Shown here piece by piece: positions 1,393 to 45,219 of a DNA stretch of 64,000 nucleotides. The notes beneath the pieces are model-generated. The model had not been told where the DNA came from. It saw only the letters and a program-made list of their open reading frames with translations, and did no database searches. The stretch covers positions 16,821-80,820 of the forward strand of contig JALLOH010000003.1 of assembly GCA_027717655.1 (NCBI GenBank), in the 5' to 3' direction. The position numbers and the translations under genes were made by a program. How positions within the stretch are numbered: position 1 is the stretch's first letter; each line of letters opens with the position of its first letter. Origin of the DNA: Acidobacteriia bacterium AH_259_A11_L15. GTDB taxonomy: Bacteria; Acidobacteriota; Terriglobia; Acidiferrales; 2-02-FULL-67-57.

Positions 1393-4300
1393 TCATTGAA
1401 GTCTTTTAATCCACTTGACCAACTTCTTCGTCTGTTGCATCTCCTTCTCCGCGAGTGGGCCGTAGGCTTGATAGTTGCGCAAGGCGGCGTTGGCGAACTC
1501 CAGAGCATCTGCGTACATGCCTGCGTTCGTTAGCGCGACCGCGAAATTGCGGCGTTCTTTGGCTGCCTCATAGAAATCCCCCTCCGATTCAAAATGGCGA
1601 ATTGCCTCGCTACAGTGAGTCAAGGCGCGTCCCGGGTTACCCATATCGTAGTATACATGGGCGAGCCCACTGTGAACCCTCGCCAAATCAGGCGCTGCGT
1701 TTGGAGGGATGAGTTCAAGCGCCCGCCAGTAGAATTGTACAGCGGCGTTAAGGTGACGGCGCAGCTCTTCCTCTGGCTTTTTGGTTGCCTGAGCTTCTTT
1801 GAAGCGTTCATGGGCCACAAGCCCAAGATGACGCAACGATGTAGCACGTCCCCCTTGGTGGCGCTCCTCCCAAAGTTCCAAACTACGCCGATACCAGTAT
1901 TCGGCCTTCGCAAGGTCACGGAGGGCAGGAAGGCCGTATACGTGCCCAAGATTCAATGCGGCGAAGGCCTCGGCGATGCGGTCGCCAATGCGTTGGTGCA
2001 AAGCTACGGCTTCCTCGTGAGGCGCAACACACTCGGCTTTGCCCTGTTCGCGCTGAATGTAGCCCAACTGTGCCAGCGAGACCGCTAGCGTCCGAATGCA
2101 GCTACGCTGGTGTGCATCCAGTGCTTCGGGCGGCACGGCAAGCGCTGAGGCAGCGGATTGGCGTTCCCATGCCACGCGGAGGTTTTGCAAGCGCTCTGCC
2201 TCCTTCCACTGCCGCATTTGACGGGCGAGATCCATACGCCATTCGGTGACGAGGCCCCAGTCCTCCTCCCGCCCGGGCAGCGCGCCGTCCGTGGCCGGCT
2301 CGACGAAGTCCGGCACAATCTCATTTACGAGCCGCGCCCACTCCACTCGGCGTCCGGCTTGAGAGTAGAGTCCGCGCAAGCCCTGCATCGTACTCGTCAA
2401 GGCATTCCACCAGCCATGTGTGCGGGCAAGCCGCCGGGCATACAGGAAGTTTTCTTCCTCGATAGTCAGCACGTTAATGATCTTAGGGTCGCCACCTTCG
2501 TTCTGAGCGAAACAGTAGTCCCCAAACCAGCCGACCATTTCGACATAAGCCCTCTCCGCCTGCTCTCGACGATCCGCATAGTGTTGCTCGAACAGACGGC
2601 GGAGAAACCAAGGTAGCGCTGGGTGGATGCTGTAGTAGTCGCCGATGGCAGTGAGCAGGCCGATTTCCGCCGCGCGGTCGAGCAAGGCCCTAGCCGCTTC
2701 GCGCGTCAGGCCGCACACCTCGGGCAGACACCAGCCTTTTTCGGGTACTCCCATCGCTCGCAGCGCACCTGCATGCACAAAGCCCTGAAAAAGGTGCAAC
2801 AGAGCCAGCTGCTTGCGCTCGGCTTCGCTGAAAGCATGCTTAAAGCCGTAACTCAATGACGCACCCAAAGACTTCGAGCGTCCTTCACCGGCTTCATCCT
2901 CAAATGCGGCTTCGCCAGCGCGCAGTTTGGAGACGAAGCCTTCTATTTGCTCTCTGGTCCTCAGTCCATCGCGCAGCGCCTGGTCGACCACCACCGTCAT
3001 TGTCAGCGGGTTGCCTCGTGTGAATTGGAGCAGCGGTCGCCAGTCTTCCAAGTCGGTTAGTAGCCGGCGATGCTTCTCTGCCAGTGCCTTCGCCAACTGC
3101 ACACGTTCCTGCATCGGCATGGGCGGCACGATGATGCGCGCAGGCAGGTTACCCAGCCAAGCGCGTTCGTCACGCCGCGAGGTCAACAGGAATTTGGCTC
3201 GCGTCTTCCTCGCCGCACGCAAAAACTCGGCTAACTCCTGTTGCTCGGCTACGCACCACGCTGAAGACACGCCGGCCGGGAAGCCCGCTACCGTCTCAAC
3301 GTTGTCCCAAATCCAGAGCACTGGGACTTGCTGCAGCACCCGGAGTGCCACATCTCGCCGCTGATCCTCACTCAACGCGAGCCAGTGAATGCCCGTCTGC
3401 TCTAGCATCCTACGAAACACTTGCTCAATTGCATCCACTACGCGCGCCAGCGGCTTGTACAGCTCGAACGAGGTGAACAGCACCGGTCCATCCACGCCGC
3501 CCGTCAGCGTGTACCAGCGTGCAAACTCGGCGGCCGTGGCTGTCTTGCCGCTCCCTGCGAAGGCGTGCAGAAGGACTATGCTGTGCGTGTCGAAGGCGCG
3601 GTCGACGGCCAACAAGGTTTCATCTCGGCCGAAGAAGCCCACGTCTGGGGGCTTCGGCAGGTTGGCGTCAAGCTTCCCACGCGCCGGCGCGGTATCAGCG
3701 GGGTGCAGGGTGATGGTGAATTTCTCGCCTTTGGGTGACTTAGGGAAGAGCGCAACCGGCGCAGATTCGTACACGACCGGCACGAGCCAATCTTGCAAGG
3801 AGCGCGGAGCGTAAGCGATCTCGCGCAGCGGTTGGTCGTGCAATTGCTTGCGGCCTAGCGTCACGGCCTCGCCGAGAGTTTGGCCCTGCGTGAGCGCGGC
3901 GTACAGGTCGAGCACGAACTGCGCGGCGGTGACGACGTAGACGTTGTAGCGCATGGCTACTACGCCAGCAACGCCCGTGTCCATCACCTCATGGGCTAGC
4001 GAGCCATAGGCGCGCACTTGGCCGTGTGGGTCGTCCTCTTCTTCCTTGAGCGGAGCCTCAGGCGCGTCGGCGTGGGCGGAACGGCAGGCATTGAGCACCA
4101 GCACCGGCACGCCCATCTCGACCAACAGTTTGCCGAGCTTGTGGCCGCCCACTAACTCGACATTATCCGGCAGCTTGGGATTTTCAAACGCCAAATAGCC
4201 ATGCGCCCCTTTCCGTAGGGTGGATGGCAACAATGGACTAAACCTTTTGACTATTTCCTCTAGTTTGTCCGGCTTGGCTACTTCCGCGTACAGCCCATGC

Positions 4301-4995
4301 CCGTCAAAATGGACGACGCGATACGGCTCACCCTTGGCTTTGGCTGCGCGCAGGGCCCGACCCAACTGCTCGAACGTGGGCGGGCGCAGCACGTCCAGTT
4401 GGAAGGCATCCCGGGCGGTCGCACTCAGCCCCTTGATGAGGCGGCTGGCGACCGAGCGAAACGGCACATCCTCGCGTCCGCCAGGGCGACAGACCACCAA
4501 TAGGATGCGGATGGGGCCGGACCTAGTCGGGGGGAGGTGCAGGCGTTGCGCGGTTTGGTGATGAGCGCGCACAAAGGCGCGGGCTTGCAGGACTAGCGGC
4601 ATATCGGTCGTCGGATCGCGAATCAGTTCCCATGGGATGGTTGCTGCTCCCCGTACATCAGTGAAAATTTCAACGCGGGTGTCTTTCAGGGAACCACGGA
4701 GCATGGCCCACAGATCGCGGACGTCGTTGTTGGCCTGAAACACGGCCTTGAAGAGTTCTGTTCCAATCTCGGCCATGCGGTTCTCAATACGCGCCGCGAT
4801 CTTGGGCATGGGGTCTAGCGGGTTTTGCAGGTAGTCTTCAAGGTACCAGCGTAAGTCCTCTTGCTCTTGCGCGGTGAGTCTGAAGTGAAAGCGGGCAGTG
4901 GCGGCGTGGCCAGGCGGCCCAACGCCTTCGAGCACGACTTCGACGCGGTGTTGGTTATGCACCTCAGAGGCTTGCGTGAGGCGAAGGATTAACAT
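1393..4995 (-). CDS. CHAT (caspase-like) protease - STAND/NB-ARC NTPase - TPR protein
   Basis: CHAT dyad motifs VVHFDGHG and VLVLNACRSA; P-loop LHAFAGSGKTATAAEF with downstream VPVLWIWDNVE; C-terminal TPR-like repeats. Start placed at MLILRLTQ (4995) rather than the ORF-track start 5076. Confidence 0.88.
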   Translation of the reverse strand: MLILRLTQASEVHNQHRVEVVLEGVGPPGHAATARFHFRLTAQEQEDLRWYLEDYLQNPLDPMPKIAARIENRMAEIGTELFKAVFQANNDVRDLWAMLRGSLKDTRVEIFTDVRGAATIPWELIRDPTTDMPLVLQARAFVRAHHQTAQRLHLPPTRSGPIRILLVVCRPGGREDVPFRSVASRLIKGLSATARDAFQLDVLRPPTFEQLGRALRAAKAKGEPYRVVHFDGHGLYAEVAKPDKLEEIVKRFSPLLPSTLRKGAHGYLAFENPKLPDNVELVGGHKLGKLLVEMGVPVLVLNACRSAHADAPEAPLKEEEDDPHGQVRAYGSLAHEVMDTGVAGVVAMRYNVYVVTAAQFVLDLYAALTQGQTLGEAVTLGRKQLHDQPLREIAYAPRSLQDWLVPVVYESAPVALFPKSPKGEKFTITLHPADTAPARGKLDANLPKPPDVGFFGRDETLLAVDRAFDTHSIVLLHAFAGSGKTATAAEFARWYTLTGGVDGPVLFTSFELYKPLARVVDAIEQVFRRMLEQTGIHWLALSEDQRRDVALRVLQQVPVLWIWDNVETVAGFPAGVSSAWCVAEQQELAEFLRAARKTRAKFLLTSRRDERAWLGNLPARIIVPPMPMQERVQLAKALAEKHRRLLTDLEDWRPLLQFTRGNPLTMTVVVDQALRDGLRTREQIEGFVSKLRAGEAAFEDEAGEGRSKSLGASLSYGFKHAFSEAERKQLALLHLFQGFVHAGALRAMGVPEKGWCLPEVCGLTREAARALLDRAAEIGLLTAIGDYYSIHPALPWFLRRLFEQHYADRREQAERAYVEMVGWFGDYCFAQNEGGDPKIINVLTIEEENFLYARRLARTHGWWNALTSTMQGLRGLYSQAGRRVEWARLVNEIVPDFVEPATDGALPGREEDWGLVTEWRMDLARQMRQWKEAERLQNLRVAWERQSAASALAVPPEALDAHQRSCIRTLAVSLAQLGYIQREQGKAECVAPHEEAVALHQRIGDRIAEAFAALNLGHVYGLPALRDLAKAEYWYRRSLELWEERHQGGRATSLRHLGLVAHERFKEAQATKKPEEELRRHLNAAVQFYWRALELIPPNAAPDLARVHSGLAHVYYDMGNPGRALTHCSEAIRHFESEGDFYEAAKERRNFAVALTNAGMYADALEFANAALRNYQAYGPLAEKEMQQTKKLVKWIKRLQ

Positions 4996-5670
4996 CGGGA
5001 TCCCAAAAATAGTTTTGTGTAGAAAAACCTGGGCCCAAATATTCCTTTTTGTCTCGAACCAACTACAGCTTAGCACGTCGGTGACTTCCCTGCTAGCGTT
5101 GCTGTTTTCAGAGACTCTTCAAACGACGTTTCCATAGTGTTTCCAAACATAGCTTTCAATACAGGCAGCGACGAGCCGGAGGCCGGCCTGACACCAAGCG
5201 GATTCGGAGGCGTCGGCAGAAAACTTTTCACCTGCATAACCAGCAGCCTGCAAACCTGACCTTTAAGTCTATTCTGTCCTGATGTGACGATAATTGGAGG
5301 TACGTTGCGTGCTTGCGAAGAGAAGTAGACACTCCGGCGACGAAATGCTTGCTAGTGTGCGCAGACACATAAATGAGAGCTCCAGCTCGCTAAGTGCTTT
5401 CAGGAAGACCTACCTTCAGGAGCTGGATGGCTGCGTGCCAGCGGAGTTTGTTGGCGACGACCTACTTTACTCAATCAAGGAAAAGTATGAAGGATCATCG
5501 AACGAATTCGAGTTCCTTTTCCACGATTGCTCTCGCGGGCAGGCCGTGAAGCTTGACCCGCCATCCCCTGTGGGCCTTTGTCAGCAGAATCAGAACCTCG
5601 CGGTCCCTCTTCCTGTAGAAGCAGACAATTCTCTCACCCTGGACTTCATCTCCGAGGCTGCTCAAAACAG

Positions 5671-7018: not shown

Positions 7019-7067
7019 GCACCATGACCGTGTCAGATTTTAATTGCTCTTAATCATGACCAAGAAA

Positions 7068-8105
7068 ATGAATGAACGATCACTCATCGCGAACGCTTCT
7101 GCTTTCGCCCAAGCCTATATCCCGTCGATCTTCGTTGCGAGACAGCCCGAGATTACAAGACTTCGCAGTTACCTCGCTCCACTTGTTCGCAAGCAACCGA
7201 TCAAGAACATTTGGATTCATGGCCCATCTGGGGCAGGCAAGACTTGCGTAGCCAAATTCCTCCTCAACGAATTGGAGGAACAGCATCAGATCAAGGGAGT
7301 CTACGTCAATTGCTGGGAGACCGAGACCTTCTTCTCCATTTTGGACAAGGTGGTCCGGGACTTTCGCATCCTCGGAGCAGAGCGCCTGAGCACTGTGTAC
7401 AAGATGGAAAGGCTTGAGAACTATTTGCAAAGCAAGCCGTTGCTTATCGTCCTGGATGAGCTCGACAAGCCGTCGCCCAAAGAAAGAGATTCGATTATCT
7501 ACAACCTGTGCGGGATACCGAGCGTGACCCTCATTTGCATCTGCAACAGCCGCTACTTCTACTACATTCTCGACAGCAGAGTGAGGTCCCGACTGGATGC
7601 CGTGCTGCTGGAGTTCAAGCCCTACGCCCTTGAAGACGTTCAAGAAATCCTGCGGCAGAGAGCGGAATTAGGGTTGAAGCCTGAAGCAGCGAAACAGGCC
7701 GTTCTACGGAAGGTAGCCCGGCTCGCCAACGGGGATGCCAGAATTGCCATCCAGACCTTGCGACATGCGGCAAGCTACGCCGATGTGTATGCCGGCGACC
7801 GAATCCAAGCTGATCATGTCAAGAGCGGCCACAGCATCGCGCGAAACGCCAAGAAGAAGTATGTTCTCGGCAAACTGTCTGACCACCACCAGCTCATCTA
7901 CGGAATCATCCAGGACTTCGGCGAGGTCAGGTCAGGTGAGCTCTGGAAAGAATATCTGCTGCGCTGCAAGCAGGCCGGAATGCCATCGGCCGCGCCTCGA
8001 ACCTTTTCGCTCTACATCAAAAAGCTGGAAGAAGTCGATCTAGTTACGAGCGCAAGGGCCCTCGGTATCAAGGGAAATGTGCGGGTGTTCAGGGTTCGGA
8101 GATAA
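7068..8105 (+). CDS. Orc1/Cdc6-family (archaeal-type) replication initiator AAA+ ATPase with C-terminal winged helix
   Basis: Walker A GPSGAGKTCVAKFLL, Walker B LLIVLDELDK, sensor-1 region TLICICNSRYF, sensor-2 region NGDARIAIQTLRHA, and Cdc6_C-type wH LSDHHQLIYGIIQDFGEVRSGELWKEYLLRCKQAGMPSAAPRTFSLYIKKLEEVDLV. Alternative starts 7044/7056. Confidence 0.85.
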   Translation: MNERSLIANASAFAQAYIPSIFVARQPEITRLRSYLAPLVRKQPIKNIWIHGPSGAGKTCVAKFLLNELEEQHQIKGVYVNCWETETFFSILDKVVRDFRILGAERLSTVYKMERLENYLQSKPLLIVLDELDKPSPKERDSIIYNLCGIPSVTLICICNSRYFYYILDSRVRSRLDAVLLEFKPYALEDVQEILRQRAELGLKPEAAKQAVLRKVARLANGDARIAIQTLRHAASYADVYAGDRIQADHVKSGHSIARNAKKKYVLGKLSDHHQLIYGIIQDFGEVRSGELWKEYLLRCKQAGMPSAAPRTFSLYIKKLEEVDLVTSARALGIKGNVRVFRVRR

Positions 8106-8190
8106 GGCAGAAAGGTGATGAAGTACGGCCAGCATTTCCCGTCTTCTGGGCAAGGTCCACTGCTCCGATGCAGCCAAGTTCATACGCAGA

Positions 8191-9879
8191 TTGCCCGACG
8201 AGTGTATCGATTTTGTAATGACCTCTCCGCCCTACTGGGGGCTTCGAGATTACTGTGTGGAAGGTCAGATTGGGCTCGAAAAACATCCGCACGAATACAT
8301 TGAAAAACTTGCAAATATCTTTCATGACCTGAAGCGTGTTCTGAAACCGCACGGCTCCTTATATCTCAATCTTGGAGACACCTATTGCAGCACCAAAGGC
8401 ACATGTGTCAATGCAGGAGGTGGGCAAAGTTCTATACGACAATCTGCGTACACACGGCTGGCTGGAAACAAGAATCCCAATCGCATGCTCAAGCCAGACG
8501 GTCAGTGGCTTCAGCCCAAGCAACTACTGATGATTCCCGCGCGGGTAGCCATTGCCTTGCAAGAGAATGGCTGGATATTAAGGAACGACATCATCTGGTA
8601 CAAGCCGAACGGCCTTCCCAGCAGCGTCAAGGATCGCCTTGCAAACAAGTATGAGCATGTCTTTCACTTCGTCAAAAGCCGTACGTACTACTATGACCTG
8701 GACGCCATCCGAGTACCTCACAAACGAGGAACTCCGAGAGCAGAATACGATTTCGAGCGCATGATGAAAGGCGGTGAGCGCTTTAACGGAAAATGGGGCA
8801 AGGCTGGTACCCAGAAGGCATTCGTCGCTGGAAACGTTCTTGGCAAAAAGCCTGGCGATGTTGTTCTTTCTAGAGACAAGACGGCGGCCCTCAGGAAAAT
8901 CAACTCGATGCGAAATCCGCCTGAGCCGACTGAACCCGACGCTTTTCATCCTCTTGGGAAGAATCCAGGGGATTTCATAGAACTTGAGGGCAGCACGTAC
9001 CCAGACATAGACAACCCTGAGTATTGCTACCGATCAGCGCCTAGGAAGCGCAGTGAGCGGAAGCAGAACGCGGAAGCGGCTAACAGTTCTGCATGCTCGA
9101 ATGCAGACATCTCTTGGACAATCAACGTAAACGGCAAGAATAGGGGAGGAATCTATCGCAGCGATGAAGAAGAGTTAGGCTTTTGGAAACAGGTCGTACT
9201 GGAGGAGTACGCAAAGGCTGGCAAAGCTGGCGGTAAAAGATTCTCAGGCAAGCACCAGGCTCTTGATGAGCGGTCTCCCTTGTTCAGAATAGCTCTGAAC
9301 AGCGGCCAGATGAGGAATAGCGTCTATTACATAATTGACACCCTGAATGTGTCTCGCGGTTTGAAGCAAAAGCTCAAAAACTGGTGGCATGACCATAGCG
9401 GCCATTGCCTTGGGTCAAACCCTGGTGACTTCTGGAGGATAACTACGAAGCCTTTTCCAAAGGCGCATTTTGCTGTTTATCCAGAAGAGCTCTGCATTAG
9501 GCCGATCCTTTCATCCTGCCCGCGCTTGGCCTGTAGGGAATGCAGTAAACCTCCGCACATACTACGTTCGCATGTCGGCAGGAACCAAGGCGATTGGAGA
9601 ACTGAGGCAAGAAGAAAGGGCCTGCCAGTGGACACAGTGGTAGCACATCTAGGAGGTGGGCATACAGGGCTTTCCCCAGGCTACCGTGAGAGGCACGTAG
9701 TAGGTTGGAAGGATTGCGGTTGCAATGCCGGTGTTGAGCCCGGGATTGTCTTCGACCCGTTTGCAGGAACAGGCACAACCCTTTTGGTTGCGAAGAAGCT
9801 GGGGCGTAGATGGCTTGGATGTGAGCTAAATCCCAAATTCGTGAAAATGGCAAATCAGCGAATCAGTAACAACTACTAG
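8191..9879 (+). CDS. Beta-class (N4-cytosine/N6-adenine) DNA methyltransferase
   Basis: TSPPYWGLRDY catalytic motif; C-terminal FDPFAGTGTTLLVAKKLGRRWLGCELNPKF SAM motif. The frame is open upstream to 8122 (SISRLLGKVHCSDAAKFIRR) without an ATG. Confidence 0.88.
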   Translation: MPDECIDFVMTSPPYWGLRDYCVEGQIGLEKHPHEYIEKLANIFHDLKRVLKPHGSLYLNLGDTYCSTKGTCVNAGGGQSSIRQSAYTRLAGNKNPNRMLKPDGQWLQPKQLLMIPARVAIALQENGWILRNDIIWYKPNGLPSSVKDRLANKYEHVFHFVKSRTYYYDLDAIRVPHKRGTPRAEYDFERMMKGGERFNGKWGKAGTQKAFVAGNVLGKKPGDVVLSRDKTAALRKINSMRNPPEPTEPDAFHPLGKNPGDFIELEGSTYPDIDNPEYCYRSAPRKRSERKQNAEAANSSACSNADISWTINVNGKNRGGIYRSDEEELGFWKQVVLEEYAKAGKAGGKRFSGKHQALDERSPLFRIALNSGQMRNSVYYIIDTLNVSRGLKQKLKNWWHDHSGHCLGSNPGDFWRITTKPFPKAHFAVYPEELCIRPILSSCPRLACRECSKPPHILRSHVGRNQGDWRTEARRKGLPVDTVVAHLGGGHTGLSPGYRERHVVGWKDCGCNAGVEPGIVFDPFAGTGTTLLVAKKLGRRWLGCELNPKFVKMANQRISNNY

Positions 9880-9908
9880 CTCGTCCCGCCTAGGACTATT
9901 GAATCAGC

Positions 9909-10248
9909 GACCGCCACCAGTTGATCTATGGAATCATTCAGGACTTTGGAGAAATCAGGTCACGCGAGCTGTGGAAAGAATATCTGCTGCGCTGCAAGCA
10001 GGCCGGTATGCCATCAGCCGCGCCTCGAACCTTTTCGCTCTACATCAAGAAGCTAGAAGAACTCGCTCTAGTAATGAGCGCAAGGGCTTTGGGTATCAAG
10101 GGAAATGTGCGTGTATTCAGGGTTCGGAGATAAGGGAGAAAGGTGATGAAGTACGGCGAGCATTTCCCGTGTTCTGGGCAAGATTCACTGCTCCGATGCA
10201 GCTAGGTTTATCTGCAGACTCCCGGATGAGTCTGTCGATTTTGTGATG
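9909..10248 (+). pseudogene. Partial duplicate of orc1/cdc6 3' end plus methyltransferase 5' end
   Basis: Collinear with 7881-8220, about 42 mismatches in ~340 bp by hand count (~88% identity), no gaps seen; contains a 70-aa copy of the Cdc6_C winged helix. Confidence 0.9.
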
Positions 10249-10479
10249 TCGATGCCCACAATGGCCACCTGGATGAAAGAGTTTGACAGCGGACAAAAGA
10301 CCTATGCTTCGGTGTTGCAACTTATGCAAGTGACCGAGAAGCATTTCGGTTCCAACCGCTCCACAGTGCGAGCAAAAGAAGCAGGCTCTATGCAGAGAAA
10401 GATGCAGTCAATGGAGATACTCGTGCTTCCCTAGACAGCGGCACTGTTTCCGCGCTATGTTCGATTCAATTTAGAGGGA

Positions 10480-11211
10480 ATGATTATGAATCTCTTTGGC
10501 GTCCGTGTTAGCGGACCACAGGTCATGGAAGTGTCACGGAAGATGGCTGATGCTGTACGTGAGCCGACCTACCTTTATCCATGGCAATCATTGGAGTCGG
10601 ACTTGTGTCGTAGGGGGCTCTCCTCGATCTATATGGTGGGGTATGGAAGTTTGCTTGATTCGGCATCAGCTGCTCAAACGCTAAAACACAGCTCCCGGGA
10701 ACCTCGTGAACCCGTGATTGCCTTCGGGGCACGCCGAATCTTTAATTGCGAGATGTCATCGGGTGGACGCTACGGACCGGCGATAAGTCCCTCTGCACGC
10801 GCAGCGTTGAATGTCCGGCTCACTGGCGACATCAACGACGCTATCAATGGCATCATGGTGGAAATCTCGGTGAAAGACATCCCAGCCCTGCAGGCAAGGG
10901 AAGTGGGGTATGACCTAGCACCTATAGCGTGTCTCCGATGGAACGATCTCGAAGAAACTCCCTTCGTGGCCTACATCCTCTGCTGCCCTGACGAACCGCG
11001 GGATGGGAAGCGGCGGACCAACGATGGGCTCGAGCCGCATCGGGAGTACTACAAGGTGTGCCGCAGGGGAGCTGCCGAGGTGGGCGAGGAGTTCCTTCGC
11101 TTCTGGCTCTCCACCACCTATTTGGCCGACGGAGTCACACCTGTGGCGCAGTGGGAAGCCACGGCGCTCCCAGAGATACGCAGTGATGCGACAAAAGAGG
11201 GCAGGCCATGA
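10480..11211 (+). CDS. Gamma-glutamylcyclotransferase-like (GGCT/AIG2-type fold) protein
   Basis: Start-proximal VGYGSLLD motif typical of GGCT-like folds; ATGA overlap with next gene. Confidence 0.55.
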   Translation: MIMNLFGVRVSGPQVMEVSRKMADAVREPTYLYPWQSLESDLCRRGLSSIYMVGYGSLLDSASAAQTLKHSSREPREPVIAFGARRIFNCEMSSGGRYGPAISPSARAALNVRLTGDINDAINGIMVEISVKDIPALQAREVGYDLAPIACLRWNDLEETPFVAYILCCPDEPRDGKRRTNDGLEPHREYYKVCRRGAAEVGEEFLRFWLSTTYLADGVTPVAQWEATALPEIRSDATKEGRP

Positions 11212-13268: not shown

Positions 13269-15296
13269 CTAGGGTTTCAGCAGAGGATCATCGGCGCCAA
13301 GAAACGACCTGACATCTCGAATAATGATGCGTGGATATGATGGGCACTCTGGGGGGTCCGTCTGTCGAGCAATCGCGTGGACCAAATTTCTACGCGTGAC
13401 AAGTACAACGATAGTTTCATATCCGGCCCGAACGCATTTTTGGACATTCTCTTTGGCATCGGAACGTCCCGTTTCTATCTCGATAGCTACTTCTCGACCC
13501 TCTTTGCCTGCTAGTAGGTCGATTGTCTTGCCGCCACCGACTGGCTTTTCCATCTCGACTTTGTACCCCCGTCTTTCCAGGTGCTGAGCGACCTTCTCCT
13601 TCCAATACTCGTGCTCCGGGCCTCCTCTACCTCTTGTGGGCACTTCAAAGCCAAGATTCTTCAGCGCCTCTTTTCCTTTCTCGGTCAGCCACAACAACCT
13701 AACCCGACCTTTGCCACTTGATATATCAACTGGCTCAATCAAACCTTTCAAGAGAAGCACGGTGCACACCTTGTTGCCAAAATACGAAGAAAGATTAAGA
13801 CGACAGTATCTCTCAGCAACCCCCGACGTTATATTCTCCATAACGTCTCTCAGCAATTCTATTTCTTCTTTTGTTAGTTTTTCCGCCGGCCGCATCGGCA
13901 GAATCTCAGCCTTCCTCTTCCCATCAGCCAGAATCTCGATGCTTGCCCCAGACAAACCCGGCGATTGCGCAGCCACGTCTCGGTCCGTCATCTTGCCCTT
14001 GTCGACGTATACGAGCGGGAACTTCACCAAAAAGGGCTTGTACCACCTGCCTTGCAGTCGAACGATGCCATGACCTACAGGCAGCTTGCCGAGGTACTCC
14101 TTCTCTTCTGCGCCAAGGAGCGTCGCATTAGCTATCGTTGATACATCGTGGCCGTGCTTGAGATTCATGGCTACTGTGCAGTAGGTATTGCCTAGGGAGG
14201 GAACAGAAATGAGCGAAGGGTGCTGGTCGATCAGGATAATTGACTCACCCAGCTCCCGGATCTCCCGCAGAATCACGTCCATAATTGTCTCCTTGGATTG
14301 CTTCCGCTTTAGTAGAACGTGATGAGCTTCCTCGATGATGATCGCGTGTTTGAGTGTCTCCCGGCTTTGCTCCTGCAGCCGGTAATGATGAATCCAGAGG
14401 AGCATGGCCTCGATGAGGAAAGTCTTGTCTGCGTTCGTCAGGGCGTCGAGTTCCAGGACAGCATTTCTTTTCAGAAGAGCTCCAAGACCGGAAGGCTGCC
14501 GGACATTCAAGACCTTACCTATGTCTCCGTAGCAGAGGGTCGCGATTGCCCTTTTTGTCGAGTCCATCCACTGGGCTTCCCGACCTTTGACCTTTGCTTT
14601 GATGAGCCATTCCTTGACATCGGCGAGAGTAGGAAATGATTCGGGCTCGTTATCGTACATCCCAAACTGCTCGTAAATCCCGTCAATAGCTTCTTGCAGC
14701 AAGTATGCCACGCCTTCTCCTAGCCAGTACACGTGGCACATGATTTCGATGAGCTTCTTGAGCCAGATTGACGGCTTTGTTCCTTCAGGCGGGATGAGCG
14801 GGTTAAAAGTAAAAGGAGCAACGTTCCGTCCGACTGTGTAGACAACAAGCTGGCCCCGGCCCACGACCTGGAGCAGGTCCCGGTAGTTCCGCTTCCAATC
14901 AAATACAAGTATTGGAATGCCTTTGGCGAGCAGCGATTTTGCTACCAAGAAACCAACATTCGTTTTCCCGCTGCCCGTGCGCCCGAAGATTCCTACATGC
15001 TGAATCCATTCGTTCTGGCGAAGCCCGAATGATCCGAACCCCCTAGGTCCATAGACGACGGTGCCAAGAGGGTAATCACCCCCTGATTGCTCCGCTGGTG
15101 GTGGTTCTAGAAAGATTCGCTTCGTCGTGTAAGGCTTTCCGAGATGCTTGGCGGCCAAAAGCTGTAGGAATCCGTCGATCTCGCTTCTCTTCTTCGGATT
15201 CAGCTGGTACTCGAGCCAAAGAGGATCGAGTCTGTCGCCTAGGATCGGCCTGAGCTTCTGGAAAATTTCCTCTGTGTCCACGTGGATCAACCTCAT
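13269..15296 (-). CDS. HerA/VirB4-like (DUF87-type) translocase ATPase with C-terminal wHTH and nuclease-like domain
   Basis: GIFGRTGSGKTNVGFLVAKSLL Walker A, HAIIIEEAHHVLL Walker B, ESIILIDQHPSLI; C-term TIDLLAGKEGREVAIEIETG resembles a PD-(D/E)XK-like core. Confidence 0.8.
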   Translation of the reverse strand: MRLIHVDTEEIFQKLRPILGDRLDPLWLEYQLNPKKRSEIDGFLQLLAAKHLGKPYTTKRIFLEPPPAEQSGGDYPLGTVVYGPRGFGSFGLRQNEWIQHVGIFGRTGSGKTNVGFLVAKSLLAKGIPILVFDWKRNYRDLLQVVGRGQLVVYTVGRNVAPFTFNPLIPPEGTKPSIWLKKLIEIMCHVYWLGEGVAYLLQEAIDGIYEQFGMYDNEPESFPTLADVKEWLIKAKVKGREAQWMDSTKRAIATLCYGDIGKVLNVRQPSGLGALLKRNAVLELDALTNADKTFLIEAMLLWIHHYRLQEQSRETLKHAIIIEEAHHVLLKRKQSKETIMDVILREIRELGESIILIDQHPSLISVPSLGNTYCTVAMNLKHGHDVSTIANATLLGAEEKEYLGKLPVGHGIVRLQGRWYKPFLVKFPLVYVDKGKMTDRDVAAQSPGLSGASIEILADGKRKAEILPMRPAEKLTKEEIELLRDVMENITSGVAERYCRLNLSSYFGNKVCTVLLLKGLIEPVDISSGKGRVRLLWLTEKGKEALKNLGFEVPTRGRGGPEHEYWKEKVAQHLERRGYKVEMEKPVGGGKTIDLLAGKEGREVAIEIETGRSDAKENVQKCVRAGYETIVVLVTRRNLVHAIARQTDPPECPSYPRIIIRDVRSFLGADDPLLKP

Positions 15297-15841
15297 AGTA
15301 GACCAAGGCGACTGAGCAAAGATTTGTACTCGACAACTCCTTCTCGAAATTCCTTTCGTAGGCTGGAAATGTCTTGCCAGGTTCTCAGGAGGGAGCTTCG
15401 CCTCTCCTTGCGAAGGTTGGAGAGTTCTCTTTCCAGGTGGTTGCGCTTTATGTCCACACCTGTGTTGTATCCGACACCCCAGCCAGTGAAGTGGTCGAGC
15501 GACAGCGCAGCTTGGGAAATCTGATAGTCTATTTCCCGTAGGGTCTCATCCTGAAGCTGCGCCCGGGCCAGCACCTCTTCTTCGAGTTGGTCTATCGTGG
15601 ACCTGCTATCTTTGAGCTTGCCGATGACGTAGCTCTGGGCTTCATCCTCGGGTTCAGGCAGCGGCTTTCCCTCCGGTAGGAAGCGTCTGAGGTCAAAGAG
15701 TTTCCTTACGAGGTCGCCTGTCGGTTTGCGCTCATCCCAGGGCGGCTTCGGCATGCCGACTTCAAGGAACAAGGGTTGTTCGAAAAAGTCGAAGTAGTGC
15801 CAGAGCTCTTCGTAAAGCTGGTGGTCCACAGCGATCGCCAA
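15293..15841 (-). CDS. Coiled-coil protein co-transcribed with HerA-like ATPase
   Basis: 4-bp overlap with HerA-like start; long predicted helices (DSRSTIDQLEEEVLARAQLQDETLREID). Confidence 0.6.
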   Translation of the reverse strand: MAIAVDHQLYEELWHYFDFFEQPLFLEVGMPKPPWDERKPTGDLVRKLFDLRRFLPEGKPLPEPEDEAQSYVIGKLKDSRSTIDQLEEEVLARAQLQDETLREIDYQISQAALSLDHFTGWGVGYNTGVDIKRNHLERELSNLRKERRSSLLRTWQDISSLRKEFREGVVEYKSLLSRLGLL

Positions 15842-23149: not shown

Positions 23150-23647
23150 TTAGACGAGCTTCTCCCACAGCCCCCTCGACTTTTTCGTCATTGCAACGTC
23201 GAAGTACTTGGTCAGAACATGAGGAAAGGCCCTGTCGATCTCTTGCCCGAGTTCGCTAAGCGAGTACAAACGCAAGGCCGTGATGTTGTGCTTGCCAGGC
23301 TTCAACTTGCGAGCGTTCAGCAAGAGCCAACTTGGATTGGAAGTGAACGCAAGGACAGCAATTACGGGGTTGATGCCCTTGTTTTCGAAATCTTTCAGAC
23401 CATCCAGGTCGTCCCGGTCGATGGAAATCGATGTACCCGACGGAGCCTTGACCTCGACGGCGTAGCTATCTGGACCACGTTCAGCCGAGATATCCGGGCG
23501 CTCAACTGGCCGCCCTCTTGTTCTGAATCCTACCTCGCGAAAGGTAAGCTCCAAAAGAACCTGGCATATTCTGCCGAACTCTTGGGGTCCGTGCTTCTTC
23601 CTGATCTTTTGCAGCTGCTCGTAGACCTCGTAGTTCATACCTGACAC
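23150..23647 (-). CDS. Mrr-like PD-(D/E)XK restriction endonuclease-fold protein
   Basis: RPDISAERGPDSYAVEVKAPSG; overlaps the SMC-like gene 3' end. Confidence 0.65.
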   Translation of the reverse strand: MSGMNYEVYEQLQKIRKKHGPQEFGRICQVLLELTFREVGFRTRGRPVERPDISAERGPDSYAVEVKAPSGTSISIDRDDLDGLKDFENKGINPVIAVLAFTSNPSWLLLNARKLKPGKHNITALRLYSLSELGQEIDRAFPHVLTKYFDVAMTKKSRGLWEKLV

Positions 23648-25803
23648 CGGATTTCGGGTCCTTCCTTCGGGCAGCGGTCAAAGCGGTAGATGAGCAGTTT
23701 CTTCTGGCCACCCTCATTTTCAAGGATTGACTGGAGTTCCTTATCGTGGGTGGCTAGGATTACTTGTTTTTGAGGTACGAGCTCCAGAAGGATTTCAGCC
23801 AGAGCTTTCTTGTGCGAGGTATCAAGATTCTGTGAAGGGTCGTCCAAAACTAGGAATCCAAGGTTATGTGAGTAGATGTCTTTTTTTGCCAGGGCCAGAT
23901 AGATGGCGAGGGCAACGCAGTTCATCTGGCCCGTACTGAACTTCTGGCTGGCTAGAGTTTCTTCTGACTCCTTTTTGTTGACACCTTTGATGTAATACTC
24001 GTTACGCAACACACCCCTGACCGTTCTCGGCTTGACCTCTATCTCAAGCTCTTCGTAATAGGGATGATTGCAAAGCCTCCTGTAGTACGCACTTATGTCA
24101 TCCTGTGCATTACTGATCATGCTCGCAGCTAGGTCCGTCTGTACCGTCGTAACTGCCTTGGATATTGCGTCTAGGATTTCGCGTAGAGATTCGAGTTCCA
24201 AGATATTCTGTCGGAGGGCTTGAAGTTCCTTGCCCTCAAGCAGCTTTTCGAGCCTCTTGATGCTTTCCTGCTCTTTCAACACCTCAGCAATCCGCATCAA
24301 TTTCTCGCACCGGTCTTCGATTCGCTGAAGTTGTCCCTCCCTCTGGTGCAAAGGCTTTTCAAACTTCTTGATCTGTGCTCCCAGATCGGCAAGACGAGCC
24401 TTAAGTAGCGCCTCTGCATCGTCCTTGGCAGTAATGACGCGCTGGAGGACTGCAGCAACCTCTTTCAAAACTGCTTCCAAGTCTCGCTCAACGCGGGCAA
24501 GCTCGTCAGAGAGCTTCTTATGCTCACGCTGTTCCCTTTCAGCTTCAGCCTTGGCTTGCTGGCTCTTCAGTATCCTAGTGTCGATGCTCTCAAGGTCCTT
24601 CGTTTCGTGCGCTTCCAGTTCGGATTTCAGATGGTCCAGTAGCTTTTCCCTTTCGATAGAACGACCACAAACCGGGCAGGCCGTCTCCTCAGTTTCACGG
24701 AGATATTGAAGGGCATCCTTGATGACCTTGAACCGGGACTTGATGCCTGATCTTTCTTCCTCCAGCTGTTCCAGCTTTCTGGCGCTTGCTACTATGCGCC
24801 GGCTTATCGCGTCGGCGTCGCCGTGCTTTTTCTCGAAGTCCCTGAGGCTCTTCTTCTTTGAAAGGACATCAGAAGCCCTTGCAGAGTAGTCAGAAAGCAC
24901 CGCCGAGCACTCTGTTCGCAGCTGGGTTAATTCATCGATCTTTGTCTGCTCAGGCAGCTTTCGTCGAATCCTCTTGACGTAGCCTTGTAGGGACTCTGCG
25001 GCTTCCCCCAGTGCGCGAACGGAGGTTGGCACTTCGATAGAAGGTGGGTCAAGACCAGCTTCTTCAGCAACGTGGCGGAGTTCGGATGTACTGTCCTCAA
25101 CCAGCTTCGCTCCATGCTCGATTTCAAACTGCGTGTCAGCAAGGCCGGTGTGCTTCCCTTTCCTTCTGCTCTCATCAAGTCTTCGCTTGGCCTCGCCAAG
25201 GCTGGCTTTTATGTCTGCCTCCAGCTGGTCTATCCGCGTTTGGAGTTTTGTCTGCCGGTCCGAGATCTTCACCAAGCGGATTGCATCGGTAATGTTCCGG
25301 AGGGAATCCAGTCCCAACAGCCGATCCAGGGCGGCATTTCGGTCGCGAGGATCTTCAGTCAGCAATCCTCTGACTGACTCTTGGTGCAAATAGGTAGAGC
25401 GTATGAAATCGTCGAGTGTTAGGCGAAATATCCGGTAAACAGCTTGCTCTGCTTGTTCGTCTTCGAGCTCTGCACCGTCCGGCAAGGTGAGTGTGAGATG
25501 TGTCTTCTCCCGTCTCTTGGGCTTGGTTCTCCGAAGAGCAACGTCACCGTCTGGTGATTTAAGAATGAGTTCGACGGTGCCCTCGTTTTGGAAGGTGTTT
25601 ATGAGCTCGTCGTGGGTTCTGCCTTCGTAGCGGATGAACTCAACATCACCAAAAAGGCACCATTCGATAGCTGAGAGGGTACTACTCTTGCCTGAACCGT
25701 TGTCGCCAAAGAGGAAAACCAATTCCCGAGATAGGTCAAGGTCTCGCTGATCGTTGAACCCTCTGAACCCTGAAACCTTCAGCGACTTGACAAGACACGG
25801 CAT
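23635..25803 (-). CDS. Rad50/SbcC-like SMC-family ATPase with zinc hook
   Basis: VSGFRGFNDQRDLDLSRELVFLFGDNGSGKSSTLSAIEWCLFG; zinc hook ETACPVCGRSIERE; LGFLVLDDPSQNLD and ATHDKEL; start placed near MPCLVKSLKV. Confidence 0.85.
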   Translation of the reverse strand: MPCLVKSLKVSGFRGFNDQRDLDLSRELVFLFGDNGSGKSSTLSAIEWCLFGDVEFIRYEGRTHDELINTFQNEGTVELILKSPDGDVALRRTKPKRREKTHLTLTLPDGAELEDEQAEQAVYRIFRLTLDDFIRSTYLHQESVRGLLTEDPRDRNAALDRLLGLDSLRNITDAIRLVKISDRQTKLQTRIDQLEADIKASLGEAKRRLDESRRKGKHTGLADTQFEIEHGAKLVEDSTSELRHVAEEAGLDPPSIEVPTSVRALGEAAESLQGYVKRIRRKLPEQTKIDELTQLRTECSAVLSDYSARASDVLSKKKSLRDFEKKHGDADAISRRIVASARKLEQLEEERSGIKSRFKVIKDALQYLRETEETACPVCGRSIEREKLLDHLKSELEAHETKDLESIDTRILKSQQAKAEAEREQREHKKLSDELARVERDLEAVLKEVAAVLQRVITAKDDAEALLKARLADLGAQIKKFEKPLHQREGQLQRIEDRCEKLMRIAEVLKEQESIKRLEKLLEGKELQALRQNILELESLREILDAISKAVTTVQTDLAASMISNAQDDISAYYRRLCNHPYYEELEIEVKPRTVRGVLRNEYYIKGVNKKESEETLASQKFSTGQMNCVALAIYLALAKKDIYSHNLGFLVLDDPSQNLDTSHKKALAEILLELVPQKQVILATHDKELQSILENEGGQKKLLIYRFDRCPKEGPEIRCQV

Positions 25804-25819
25804 AGGACACAGACGCCTT

Positions 25820-26140
25820 CTAGCGCTCCTCGAGATCTTGGGCAACTTTCTCTTCTTGCCCCCCAAACACCTTCTCAATCGATACCGCCTCTTGCTTCAA
25901 ACCCGCCTCTATTCGGTCCACGCCACCCTCGTTGAGCCATTGGAAAATCTTCTTGGCTAGCTTGGCAGCGCGTGCCTGCATATCGGGCTCGCCAGCTAGG
26001 AGTTCCCTGATCTCTTTGTTGACAAGCTTTTCGAATCGTTCCATAAGCTCAATACCGAAGACTACCTTGACCACTAGCTTCTTGAATTTGACGATCCAGT
26101 CCCTGTCGCCGGTATCGAGACCCCGTTCGGACCTCGCCAA
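25820..26140 (-). CDS. Small 106-aa helical protein in the SMC-nuclease operon
   Basis: ORF between SMC-like and RecB-like genes, same strand. Confidence 0.5.
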   Translation of the reverse strand: MARSERGLDTGDRDWIVKFKKLVVKVVFGIELMERFEKLVNKEIRELLAGEPDMQARAAKLAKKIFQWLNEGGVDRIEAGLKQEAVSIEKVFGGQEEKVAQDLEER

Positions 26141-29083: not shown

Positions 29084-29122
29084 CTTGACAATATTGTGAT
29101 GGACGAGCTAGAATTTGTCAAG
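29084..29122. promoter_or_regulatory. Divergent operator/promoter between XRE-ImmA-PIN and CBASS operon
   Basis: TTGACA (29085-29090), 18-nt spacer, TAGAAT (29109-29114) on +; palindrome ACAATATTGT (29088-29097); inverted CTTGACAA/TTGTCAAG (29084-29091/29115-29122). Confidence 0.6.
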
Positions 29123-29144
29123 TACTTTAGACGCTAGAGTTAGC

Positions 29145-30098
29145 ATGACAGGAGACGCACACAAGGTGAGCGAGACAAGAAGGGAGGACAAAGCCAGCCG
29201 GCTTCCAACTGGCGCGCTGACAGCAGAGCGCATACTGCCCGACCCCGTACTGGATGCCCACTGGGAGAGGATCATCATCCCTGAGGATCTCCGCCAAGGT
29301 TTACTCGGGCAAGCTGTGGTTTCCATGACCATAAGGCGTCGGCTCGGAACCGTCGCGTCTGCGCTGCATGGGATCATCTTGCTAACTGGTGCGCCTGGGA
29401 CAGGGAAGACTACTTTGGCCCGCGGACTCGCCAACCGGGTGGCGCGTGCAAATCAGAGAGAATATGGCAAGATGGTTTACGCAGAGGTCGATCCTCACCG
29501 GCTTCCCAGTGAACTCCTCGGGCGCACACAGCAGGCAGTTACTCGCCTGCTTGGTGAAGAAATTCCGGCCTTCGCGTCAAATGGCAAGCCTGCAATCATA
29601 CTTCTTGATGAGGTTGAGTCCTTAGCAACAAGCAGGACTAAGGCTTCTATGGAAACGAATCCCGTCGACGTACACCGTGCGACTGATGCAGTCCTTGCTG
29701 GAGTGGACCGTCTCGCTGAAGAGTTTCCTCACCTGCTGTTTCTGGCGACGACCAACTTTTCTGAGGCCGTAGACTATGCATTCATTTCGCGGGTGGACGC
29801 GGTTTTCGAACTACCGCTCCCTAGTCTCGAAGCTGGGGCAGTCATCATCGAGGATACACTTAAGATGTACGCGAACGAGTGGAAATCCATCGAGATGCTT
29901 GCGACCAAGGACGTGGGGCTGGCTGTAGCCGAGGTCGCCCAAGGATTAGATGGACGGCAGCTGCGGAAGCTTGTGGCGCATGCGCTGGCTATGAACCTGG
30001 ACACTGCGAGCGACCCGGGAAAGCTGACAAGAGAATGTCTGCTCGAAGCAGCCAAGCGCGTGGTGGAGCTATCTCGGCAGGGGGGTCAGAGGAATTGA
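29145..30098 (+). CDS. TRIP13/Pch2-like AAA+ ATPase of CBASS (Cap6-like)
   Basis: IILLTGAPGTGKTTLARGLA, AIILLDEVESLATSR, TTNFSEAVDYAFISRVD; followed by HORMA-like and CD-NTase genes. Likely ATG at 29145. Confidence 0.82.
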   Translation: MTGDAHKVSETRREDKASRLPTGALTAERILPDPVLDAHWERIIIPEDLRQGLLGQAVVSMTIRRRLGTVASALHGIILLTGAPGTGKTTLARGLANRVARANQREYGKMVYAEVDPHRLPSELLGRTQQAVTRLLGEEIPAFASNGKPAIILLDEVESLATSRTKASMETNPVDVHRATDAVLAGVDRLAEEFPHLLFLATTNFSEAVDYAFISRVDAVFELPLPSLEAGAVIIEDTLKMYANEWKSIEMLATKDVGLAVAEVAQGLDGRQLRKLVAHALAMNLDTASDPGKLTRECLLEAAKRVVELSRQGGQRN

Positions 30099-30625
30099 GA
30101 GTCGAGCGGGTCATCGCGTGCAGTCCGGTTCGTACGCCCGAGGAGACTGCAAAACGAATTCTTGAGTTCGCGGGATCCTTCGGGGGCAGAGCCACAGTGG
30201 GCAACTTGCATCCAGCCGAAAATCTCCTGCGCCATATTGTCTTGCATCGGATCCCCCAAAACCGTCGGATCGAGGTCTTCTACGGAGAGCATTCATTACA
30301 CCTGGCGTGTGCGTATGACTCTGAAGCACTAGACATAGATGAGGATGATGAGGCTCTCCCAATTAGGCTGCCTCGGCCTTCAGAGGACGACCCATGCTGG
30401 ACGCTGCATGTACCCTGCCCGGACGATCTACACCCTTGGGCCGATTCCGTGGTTAAAGCTAATGGGATTGGCACTTGGCTGGTTCTTGAGCCATGCACAT
30501 CGAAGGCTGCCGCCGAGGGCACAGTGGAGGCCAAGCCCAAGGTGAAGAAAGAAGGACCACTCGTGGATCTTGAAGACCTAAAGGCTGCGGCACGGGCAAA
30601 TCGAGACGAGGGCTACGACAAATGA
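30095..30625 (+). CDS. Uncharacterised CBASS-operon protein (176 aa) with charged C-terminal tail
   Basis: TTG start overlapping the TRIP13 stop (TTGA) and ATGA overlap with the HORMA-like gene; no HORMA motif recognised. Confidence 0.6.
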   Translation: MRVERVIACSPVRTPEETAKRILEFAGSFGGRATVGNLHPAENLLRHIVLHRIPQNRRIEVFYGEHSLHLACAYDSEALDIDEDDEALPIRLPRPSEDDPCWTLHVPCPDDLHPWADSVVKANGIGTWLVLEPCTSKAAAEGTVEAKPKVKKEGPLVDLEDLKAAARANRDEGYDK

Positions 30626-31131
30626 GCGTGCAAGTGCGTGTGCGTGTTGTGATTCGCACGCTGAGCGTGAATTACATTGCGGGAGAGCTGACCCGAGTCT
30701 TTCAGGCAGTAGCGATTGCCTTGGGGCTGGACCTCGATTATCTCGAGTCCAACTGGAACGTCCTGCTGTCCGGCTTGCGCAAGTGGCTGGAAGAAAACAC
30801 GCTACAAGCGGTGTACTTGGAGGTTTACAACGCACAAGGTTTCCTGGTAAGCCGCCTAGATTTGCAAATCCAATACGGCTCAGTGATAGCAGATGAGAGG
30901 AACTTCTATAGCGACTTGGAAAGTGTCAGGCTGGCCATGCGGAAAGTCGGGACTGTTCCGCAGGACTGTCGCTATTGCATCGTCGTTTCGCTGGCGACCG
31001 GTGCCTCCGATGTGCCTGGGTGGTCTAGGACGACGCTGCGGTCAACCGAGGGTATGCGTTCCCTGGCAATCGGCCCCCTGCTGGGGTCTCCATCGATTTC
31101 GAGCAAAATGAACATTTGGGTCAGGCGTTAG
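30622..31131 (+). CDS. Bacterial HORMA-domain-like protein (Cap7-like)
   Basis: Size, context, and RTLSVNYIAGELTRVFQAVAIALGLDLDYLESNWNVLLSGLRKWLEE...AVYLEVYNAQGFLVSRLDLQIQY pattern of bacterial HORMA proteins. Confidence 0.65.
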   Translation: MSVQVRVRVVIRTLSVNYIAGELTRVFQAVAIALGLDLDYLESNWNVLLSGLRKWLEENTLQAVYLEVYNAQGFLVSRLDLQIQYGSVIADERNFYSDLESVRLAMRKVGTVPQDCRYCIVVSLATGASDVPGWSRTTLRSTEGMRSLAIGPLLGSPSISSKMNIWVRR

Positions 31132-31176
31132 CCAATACAGGCTGCCCATGCTTGAACAGAAAGTGAGCAAAAAGGG

Positions 31177-32046: not shown

Positions 32047-32119
32047 GCATTAGCTTGTACTGGCGAAATCAGCTTTTTAGGTAAAATTGCAAGTACCATC
32101 GAATACTGTTATCTGAGAT

Positions 32120-34243: not shown

Positions 34244-34253
34244 GCAACTTACG

Positions 34254-42507: not shown

Positions 42508-42681
42508 ATGAAGCTCCAAACGGTAGAGGATGCGGTTTTCCGCAAACGAATTTCTGATCCGGAAAGACGGGAGAAAAACAAGGGGAAAACCATATTTTGT
42601 CGTGAGGTCATCGAAATGGTGGCGCAAGCTTTGGTGGAAATGCTAAAAGAGGAAAAAGAAACCCGATTCAAAAAGGATTGA
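42508..42681 (+). CDS. Small charged protein preceding the recombinase
   Basis: ORF MKLQTVEDAVFRKRISDPERRE...; TTGA overlap with recombinase ORF. Confidence 0.45.
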   Translation: MKLQTVEDAVFRKRISDPERREKNKGKTIFCREVIEMVAQALVEMLKEEKETRFKKD

Positions 42682-44759
42682 GTTCCGTGGAAAGAATCAG
42701 TGCGCTATATCAACGGGTTACGGCAGAAGAATCGTTCCGCCGTCAGATGAGTTTGCCGGCCCAAAAGACCGAAGCCGAAGAGCTGGCCAGGAGGCACGGC
42801 TGGCAGTTCAAACACTATACGGAACCACGCCATTGCAAAGCGAGCGAGTGGGATCGTCCTGCGCTTAACGAGCTGATACGAGACATTGAGGCCGATCTTA
42901 TAAGTCGTGTGGTTGTCCGACATGAAGACCGCCTATGGCGTGACCTTGGGATCCAGCAGCGTCTTTTGGAAATATTTCGAAAACACAATGTGGAGTTTTG
43001 GGCATTTCGTGGACCACTCGACTACCTAAGTGCTCATGGGCGACTGGTTTTGAACGTGACGGGCAGCGCAGCTCAGTTCGAACGCGAGATTACAGGTGAG
43101 CGAATCCGTTCGATGAAGCGGTCGAAGGCTATGAAGGGACAACCTGCTGGTGGCCCTGCGCCTTTTGGGTACACATCCCAGGCGCGACTGGAAAGAGAAC
43201 TAGTCGCGAAGGATGGTCTTGATCAGGACGCCGCATACAAGAGGGCTTGTGAACTGATTCCTGTCGCTAAGTCTTGGGTAGTGGATGAGGCAGAGGCCGA
43301 GAGCGTGCGAATAATCTTCGACCATTATGTCAAGATGCGATGGGGTTGCCGCAAGATCGCCAAGTATCTCAACGAAATAGGGCATCGTCGCCGGTCCGGC
43401 CTTCCGTGGCACCCGGACAAGGTCCGCAGGATAATCAACGATCCGTGCGTTGCTGGTTTTACCAGCTTCGATACAGAAGCCTATGACTCCCACGTGACAT
43501 CCAAAGCGCCCAAGTCTAAGCAGACCCTTTTCAAGGCTGAGCACAAGCCGATCATCGAATCCGACCAATGGTTTGCAGCTCAGCGGCTCAAAGCAGAAAA
43601 CACAACCAGTAACCGCACAAGGGTAACTGCGCGTCAAGTCTATGCGCTCTCGGGCATCCTGGTTTGTGCAAGATGCGGGTCGCGCATGAAGGGTAAAAGC
43701 TCAGGCAGAAGTGGGTACTCCTATTACGTGTGCGCTAGGCGGGCAGCGTTCGGGCAAGAAGGGTGTGACGCTCCTCTTCTAAACTCACGCATGGTTGAGG
43801 ACTGTGTGTGGAATTACCTTCAGGAATATCTTTCGAAGCCTGAAGGCGTCGTGGAATTCGTCAAAAAGGTCAACAAGAAGCTAAAGGAAAAGGTGCCTGG
43901 AATCGACGACAGGATCAAGCAGACCGAGAGGGAGATTCAAGAAATCGATGCCAAGCTTGCCAAATATTATGCCCGCTATGAGAGGGCCAAGAACGATTTG
44001 GAGGCAGGTGCAGCCTGGGACCGGATAGTTGAGCTGAAAGATCTAAAAATTCGAAACCAGCGCACTCTTGCCGAGTTGCGGAAGCAGGAAAGTGCTTTGA
44101 AGCTTGAGGAGATGGACGTTGAGAAGGCTCAGCACTACATCAAGTCTCTTTACGTGTTTATGCGGGACCATCCGTTCGAGCGACGCGCTCTTTGTTTGGC
44201 ACTCAAGCAGAACCACGGTTTTACGGTCACGGTTCTGTCCAGGAGCAAGCTTGTTGCCTCTATGGAGTTTGATAGGCTGACGGAAATCGGACTGGGAAAA
44301 GATAGGACAGACACTGGTAGGGACTCATCAGACGCGTCTTTGGCCTATGTGTCTGGGATGGGGCAAAACTATGCTGGCCAAGCGCGTGCCCACTATCCTG
44401 CCGCCGCTCACCCTGGACGAGGCCATCCAGACCACCAAGGTCCACAGTGTCACCGGGGTGCTCGAAGACAGCCGTGGGCTCATCCCCACGCGCCCTTTCC
44501 GCGCCCCCCACCACACCATCTCCGACGCGGGCTTGATTGGCGGCGGGACGATTCCGCGGCCGGGCGAGGTCTCGCTGGCGCACAACGGGGTGCTGTTCCT
44601 GGACGAGCTGCCCGAGTTCCAGCGCAGCGCCCTGGAGGTGCTGCGGCAACCCCTCGAAGACGGCCTGGTCACCATCTCCCGGGCCATCACCAGCTTGACC
44701 TTCCCCGCCCGCTTCACGCTGGCGGCGGCCATGAACCCCTGCCCCTGCGGGTACTTTAA
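42678..44759 (+). CDS. Large serine recombinase (integrase), 3' end read through into comM sequence
   Basis: Resolvase N-term [61 protein letters not shown]; recombinase zinc ribbon [10 protein letters not shown]...YYVC...GC; coiled coil. True island-encoded part ends near 44340. Confidence 0.9.
44325..44370 (+). other. Right island/chromosome junction (attR candidate) within comM P-loop codons
   Basis: LSR reading frame fades and comM frame [16 protein letters not shown] begins at ~44356; composition shifts from island to high-GC chromosome. Confidence 0.75.
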
Positions 44760-45219
44760 CGACCCCACCCGCGAGTGCCGCTGCACGCCCACGCAGATCC
44801 AGCGCTACGTGCAGAAAATCTCCGGCCCCTTGCTCGATCGCATCGATATCCACATCGACGTTCCCGCCGTCCGCTACAAGGAGCTCCGCGGGGCCGCCCC
44901 CCGGGAAGGGTCGGCGGAGTTGCGCGCCCGCGTGATGCGCGCCCGCCAGCGGCAACTGGAGCGCTTCCGCGGCGAGAAGATGTACTCCAACGCCCAGATG
45001 CCTTCCCGGCTCATCCGCAAGGTCTGCGAAATCGACGCCGACTCCGAGAAGCTGCTGGAGACCGCCATCACCCGCCTGGGGCTGAGCGCCCGGGCGCACG
45101 ACCGCATCCTGAAGGTGGCGCGCACCATCGCCGACCTGGGCGACTCCGAGCGCATCGCCGCCAAGCACCTCTCCGAGGCCGTCCAGTACCGCACCCTGGA
45201 CCGTACCTACTGGACCTAG
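44347..45219 (+). pseudogene. comM: 3' portion of comM/YifB Mg-chelatase-like AAA+ gene, truncated by island insertion
   Basis: [34 protein letters not shown]...[19 protein letters not shown]...NPCPCGYF; no 5' half in window. Confidence 0.9.

Follow-up and report, generated by a model that had tools for sequence, protein, structure and literature searches.

The 340-bp segment at positions 9909-10248 of the window (the whole 64,000-nucleotide stretch analysed here) is a partial copy of 7881-8220, and the reading we prefer, at a probability of roughly 0.7, is that this second copy is the remnant of a once-complete second orc1-methyltransferase locus, left as a scar of recombination between diverged loci. 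Realignment gave 340 bp with no gaps, 42 mismatches and 87.6% identity, which agrees with the ~88% and about 42 mismatches counted by hand in the first-pass annotation, and the blastn score of the two copies (E = 2e-103) leads us to reject chance similarity. The pair is the sole long direct repeat of the 80.8 kb contig, and no third copy was found in the host genome. The segment had been described as a tandem duplication. It is a duplication, but the copies are not adjacent: they are spaced 2028 bp from start to start with the methyltransferase gene between them, and are more exactly described as a partial direct repeat on either side of that gene.

Codon mapping of copy 1 bore out the proposed coverage of the winged-helix (wH) domain, the junction and the first methyltransferase codons, as the copy spans orc1 codons 280-353, continues through a short junction and takes in 33 codons of the methyltransferase frame. 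In pairwise alignment, identity falls to background directly outside both ends of the repeat, while at the protein level similarity may reach two codons further to the left (278-279) before an in-frame stop interrupts copy 2. Copy 2 sets in 30 bp past the methyltransferase stop (9879), and the right end of the repeat lies directly before the catalytic TSPPYWG motif of the methyltransferase. Past 10248, the methyltransferase frame of copy 2 continues into unrelated sequence. Using blastn, no further orc1 or methyltransferase homology was found up- or downstream of copy 2, which rules out a hidden continuation of either gene outside it. Copy 2 is a truncated duplicate in the sense that homology stops within both genes, on the left and on the right (Table 1).

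Table 1 Features of the direct repeat, its neighbouring genes and the right end of the element (window coordinates).
Feature	Position	Strand	Evidence or remark
orc1/cdc6-type initiator gene (predicted), 353 aa, AAA+, lid and C-terminal wH	7044..8105	+	Pfam Cdc6_lid, AAA_16; TIGR02928; PDB 2qby_A
Copy 1 of repeat	7881..8220	+	alignment
N4/N6 DNA methyltransferase gene	8122..9879	+	Pfam N6_N4_Mtase, E 1.5e-43; start uncertain (non-ATG near 8134-8146, or TTG 8191)
Unique spacer, methyltransferase stop to copy 2	9880..9908	+	
Copy 2, wH part, 74 codons and stop, open frame with no ATG at onset	9909..10133	+	weak Pfam Cdc6_C match, below cut-off
Copy 2, junction and 33-codon methyltransferase start, ending before catalytic motif	10134..10248	+	
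Unrelated sequence entered by copy 2 methyltransferase frame	10249..10434	+	no Pfam match for 10243-10431
HerA-like ATPase and small protein, also adjoining orc1 in G232	13269..15841	-	
Large serine recombinase, right element edge	42678..44759	+	Pfam Resolvase, Recombinase, Zn_ribbon_recom
3' part of split host comM/yifB, right element end	44356..45219	+	

The differences between the copies carry a clear signature of coding constraint. In the wH part, 16 codons differ synonymously and 6 change the amino acid, and the mismatches at codon positions 1, 2 and 3 number 5, 3 and 17 (P = 0.001). At most 8 of the 25 differences in this part are non-synonymous (P = 1.8e-5 against the neutral expectation). 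The first-pass annotation had noted that many differences are synonymous and that the wH peptide is nearly intact, and the dN/dS of the aligned segment agrees: dN is 0.038-0.049 (about 0.04-0.05) and dS about 0.42, giving a ratio of about 0.1, in a comparison of only two sequences in which selection after truncation is beyond the reach of dN/dS. Its count of 6 changes was correct, but the wH part has 74 codons rather than 70. The replacements (H281R, V295I, G298R, V331L, D332A, and T335M) all fall outside helix 318-330. The methyltransferase start shows the same tendency, with 6 non-synonymous changes among 16 differences (P = 1.6e-3 against neutrality).

Since the methyltransferase fragment lacks the catalytic motif and cannot act alone, the constraint on it most likely predates truncation. 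Two copies that were both once complete would explain the constraint on the wH part as well, so a present function is not needed to account for it. Thus, the sequence comparison supports the view that the copies diverged mainly within complete genes and that copy 2 was truncated later, and the departures from neutrality in both parts favour the earlier suggestion that a second orc1-methyltransferase cassette diverged under selection before being cut. We also considered a mosaic produced by gene conversion between the copies and rejected it, as the mismatches are not clustered beyond chance (run-length tests P = 0.11-0.18).

The gene at the left of copy 1 is, on sequence grounds, a predicted initiator of the archaeal Orc1/Cdc6 type. 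The protein has a GPSGAGKT P-loop and an LIVLDE motif, matches AAA profiles, and is predicted to end in a wH domain. Its Cdc6_lid match is above the Pfam cut-off, its TIGR02928 match (E 1.4e-51, 175.5 bits) is just under the cut-off of 181.3, and in the PDB it comes closest to an archaeal Cdc6 (2qby_A, E 8.8e-33). The AlphaFold model has a mean pLDDT of 51.5 and is reliable only in the C-terminal wH domain (pLDDT about 80-95), where it places a first helix at 280-292, a helix in the recognition position at 318-330, and wing strands at 334-338 and 347-351. Because the first wH helix starts at residue 280, the onset of the repeat coincides with the edge of the domain.

With regard to the methyltransferase, an ATG start is absent in both copies (8119-8191 and 10147-10219). 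Each has an in-frame TGA, after which the codons of the two copies are homologous, and the nearest possible starts are ATT or CTG. Relatives of the methyltransferase have their N-termini some 16-29 codons upstream of the aligned TTG. The methyltransferases of the haloarchaeal viruses phiH and PhiCh1 are 36-39% identical over 76-78% of the protein. In phiH and a related Natrinema plasmid, however, the methyltransferase gene does not adjoin an annotated orc1, unlike the arrangement described here.

How the remnant may have arisen can be outlined as follows. Two diverged versions of the orc1-methyltransferase locus would have met in one integrative element, either via recombination with a related element or via an old internal duplication. 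Thereafter, the second version would have been cut at both ends, its left end becoming joined 30 bp behind the methyltransferase stop and its right end to unrelated DNA, and it would no longer be able to make an initiator or a methyltransferase. We infer both this order of events and the source of copy 2 (import versus internal duplication). The sampled genomes yielded no sister element in which the second locus is complete, and the complete ancestor is accordingly a presumed one. A parallel, although not a test, is that extra orc copies in haloarchaea are thought to be unlikely products of internal duplication (PMC3528665). Among known systems, the partial gene duplications and recombination junctions of integrative elements resemble our case in the gapless partial copy, the abrupt edges, and the genes truncated on both sides. 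They differ in that the copies here are old (dS about 0.42), yet the fragment shows no decay; old divergence together with an undecayed fragment points to a truncation younger than the divergence. Two observations count against reading copy 2 as a remnant, namely that its onset at the wH domain edge (residue 280) would rarely be met by a random cut, and that the wH frame is still open. Integration of a cassette by a recombinase at the orc1 3' end, as happens at tRNA genes, was rejected given that no recombinase gene lies within 7881-9908 and that copy 2 is itself truncated.

As a remnant, copy 2 is most likely inert. Its sole likely present effect would be that of a direct repeat: were the two copies to recombine, 2028 bp with the methyltransferase gene would be lost and orc1 would stay intact. 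All three computed recombinants between the copies encode a 353-aa orc1, so that loss of the methyltransferase with orc1 kept whole would be a likely side effect of such recombination.

Among the alternatives, a functional wH fragment fares best, and we still consider it unlikely. Under this reading, translation of copy 2 would yield a free wH domain able to occupy the sites bound by Orc1, as a competitor or in a regulatory role such as copy control. The idea draws on the open frame, the dN/dS of about 0.1, the unchanged predicted recognition helix, and the onset of the fragment at a domain edge. It also has a precedent in Orc1-2, which when cut down to its wH is stable and binds DNA in vitro, but such a wH-only protein failed to restore function in cells (PMC9738581). 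Moreover, the equally constrained methyltransferase fragment shows that constraint can predate truncation. The copy 2 wH frame has no early ATG, an in-frame stop lies directly upstream of it, and its sole early canonical start (TTG 9921) has no Shine-Dalgarno sequence, the last being weak evidence because some other genes of the element also have no clear one. One promoter-like match was detected, which equals the expectation from shuffled sequence. That an expressed copy 2 wH competes with Orc1 at the element's origin, and so provides a built-in brake on an archaeal-type replicon in a bacterium, is a step further and appears highly unlikely.

As the host genome is a metagenome-assembled genome (MAG) of 939 contigs, a false join had to be weighed, in which the sequence of a co-occurring strain was assembled into the contig. 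Such fragmentation (the MAG is 76% complete) and an identity of 88%, which is possible for a related strain, are compatible with this. However, both flanks of copy 2 are unique in the contig and have no words in common with those of copy 1, so a graph artefact is unlikely, and the longest run common to both copies (35 bp) is located inside the repeat. Taken together, we regard an assembly artefact as quite improbable.

More doubtful still is that copy 2 is retained as DNA, whether as an origin, a binding site or a regulatory region. The 16-bp junction differs by one base only and two stretches of 35 and 32 bp are identical, as might be expected of conserved DNA, but the mismatches track codon position (P = 0.001) with no clustering beyond chance (P = 0.11-0.18), the lone promoter-like match is at chance expectation, and no iteron-like repeats were found in 9870-10490. 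Terminator-like sites number four, compared with 0.9 expected. The first-pass proposal that the retained fragment is functional, as a free wH or as origin DNA, is therefore left unsupported. Finally, a silent cassette that donates wH variants to orc1 by gene conversion and so alters DNA specificity would suit a partial, start-less, in-register and domain-sized downstream copy, but is barely credible with a single extra copy in the genome, an identical predicted recognition helix and no mosaic pattern.

The repeat lies within a mobile element. The window enters the middle of comM/yifB at 44356, and its right part shows 75-79% DNA identity to a genome of the same genus. Approximately residues 1-225 of comM are encoded on contig C531 and residues 226-511 on contig C333, with 82% and 90% identity, respectively, to an intact 512-aa gene of the same-genus genome, so that comM is a split target whose halves lie at the ends of the element, and the split point falls at the P-loop codons. 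The right boundary of the element is further marked by the gene for a large serine recombinase and by a rise in G+C from about 0.5 to 0.6. At their other ends, beside a transposase gene, the two contigs share an overlap of 55 identical bases. They probably join there; this join is inferred, and with it the extent of the element, which probably spans window 1-44355, C531:1-6390 and C333:1-16820 (about 67.5 kb) and is inserted in comM/yifB. An archaeal host was rejected, as the MAG belongs to the Acidobacteriota and the integrative element that carries the locus is bacterial. Likewise, a mis-binned archaeal contig does not agree with the acidobacterial flank and with a comM gene split over two contigs that overlap.

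Several other genes were observed in the element. An Hjc-like Holliday junction resolvase adjoins a Rad50/SMC-like ATPase at 23150-25878 (minus strand), both of archaeal flavour. An apparently complete type III CBASS cluster occupies 29115-32905 (AAA ATPase in a TRIP13-like position, bacterial HORMA, CD-NTase, and NucC effector), and HMG-CoA reductase and a GHMP kinase, resembling the mevalonate pathway, are encoded at 33071-35297. A 1227-aa protein at 1393-5076 (minus strand) with CHAT protease, AAA and TPR parts may be a defence protein; PADLOC gave no specific match for it.

Orc1 relatives are rare in the phylum. TIGR02928 matched in 2 of 297 sampled genomes (the host and G232), neither above the curated cut-off, and the protein of G232 (51% identity) is the sole other close relative in the sampled Acidobacteriota. 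Extra samples from the phylum, class and order added one weak match only (G300, 28%). A match at L019 lay opposite a urease gene and was dismissed as spurious. In G232, the end of orc1 is followed by a small protein and a HerA-like ATPase, as found at 13269-15841 here, with no methyltransferase. The HerA-like ATPase has further relatives in the phylum at loci L022 (G236) and L021 (G155); at L022 the small-protein and HerA pair occurs with tyrosine recombinases and a methyltransferase, in a genome with no Orc1 match. In plasmid and phage collections, the nearest proteins are distant Orc1/Cdc6 proteins of haloarchaeal plasmids and viruses (23-35% identity over most of the protein), which do not fix the source given that these collections are rich in haloarchaea and hold few other archaea. 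In Thaumarchaeota, integrated elements with Orc1/Cdc6 genes have been described (PMC6563490). Our element is alike in carrying an Orc1/Cdc6-type initiator on an integrated mobile element, whereas its host is bacterial (Acidobacteriota) and it is inserted in comM. A limited search of the open-access literature turned up no report of a bacterial integrative element with an Orc1/Cdc6 gene.

Most likely a scar, the repeat is of little consequence in itself. What it does show is that recombination occurs among the orc1-methyltransferase loci of this element family, and that these once existed in no fewer than two diverged complete versions. A bacterium carrying an archaeal-type initiator is the more unusual fact, and the setting, an Orc1/Cdc6-type initiator with Hjc-, Rad50- and HerA-like genes in an acidobacterial comM element, matters more than the repeat. 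It raises the question of whether an archaeal-type initiator drives replication of the element in a bacterium, or is kept as a regulator.
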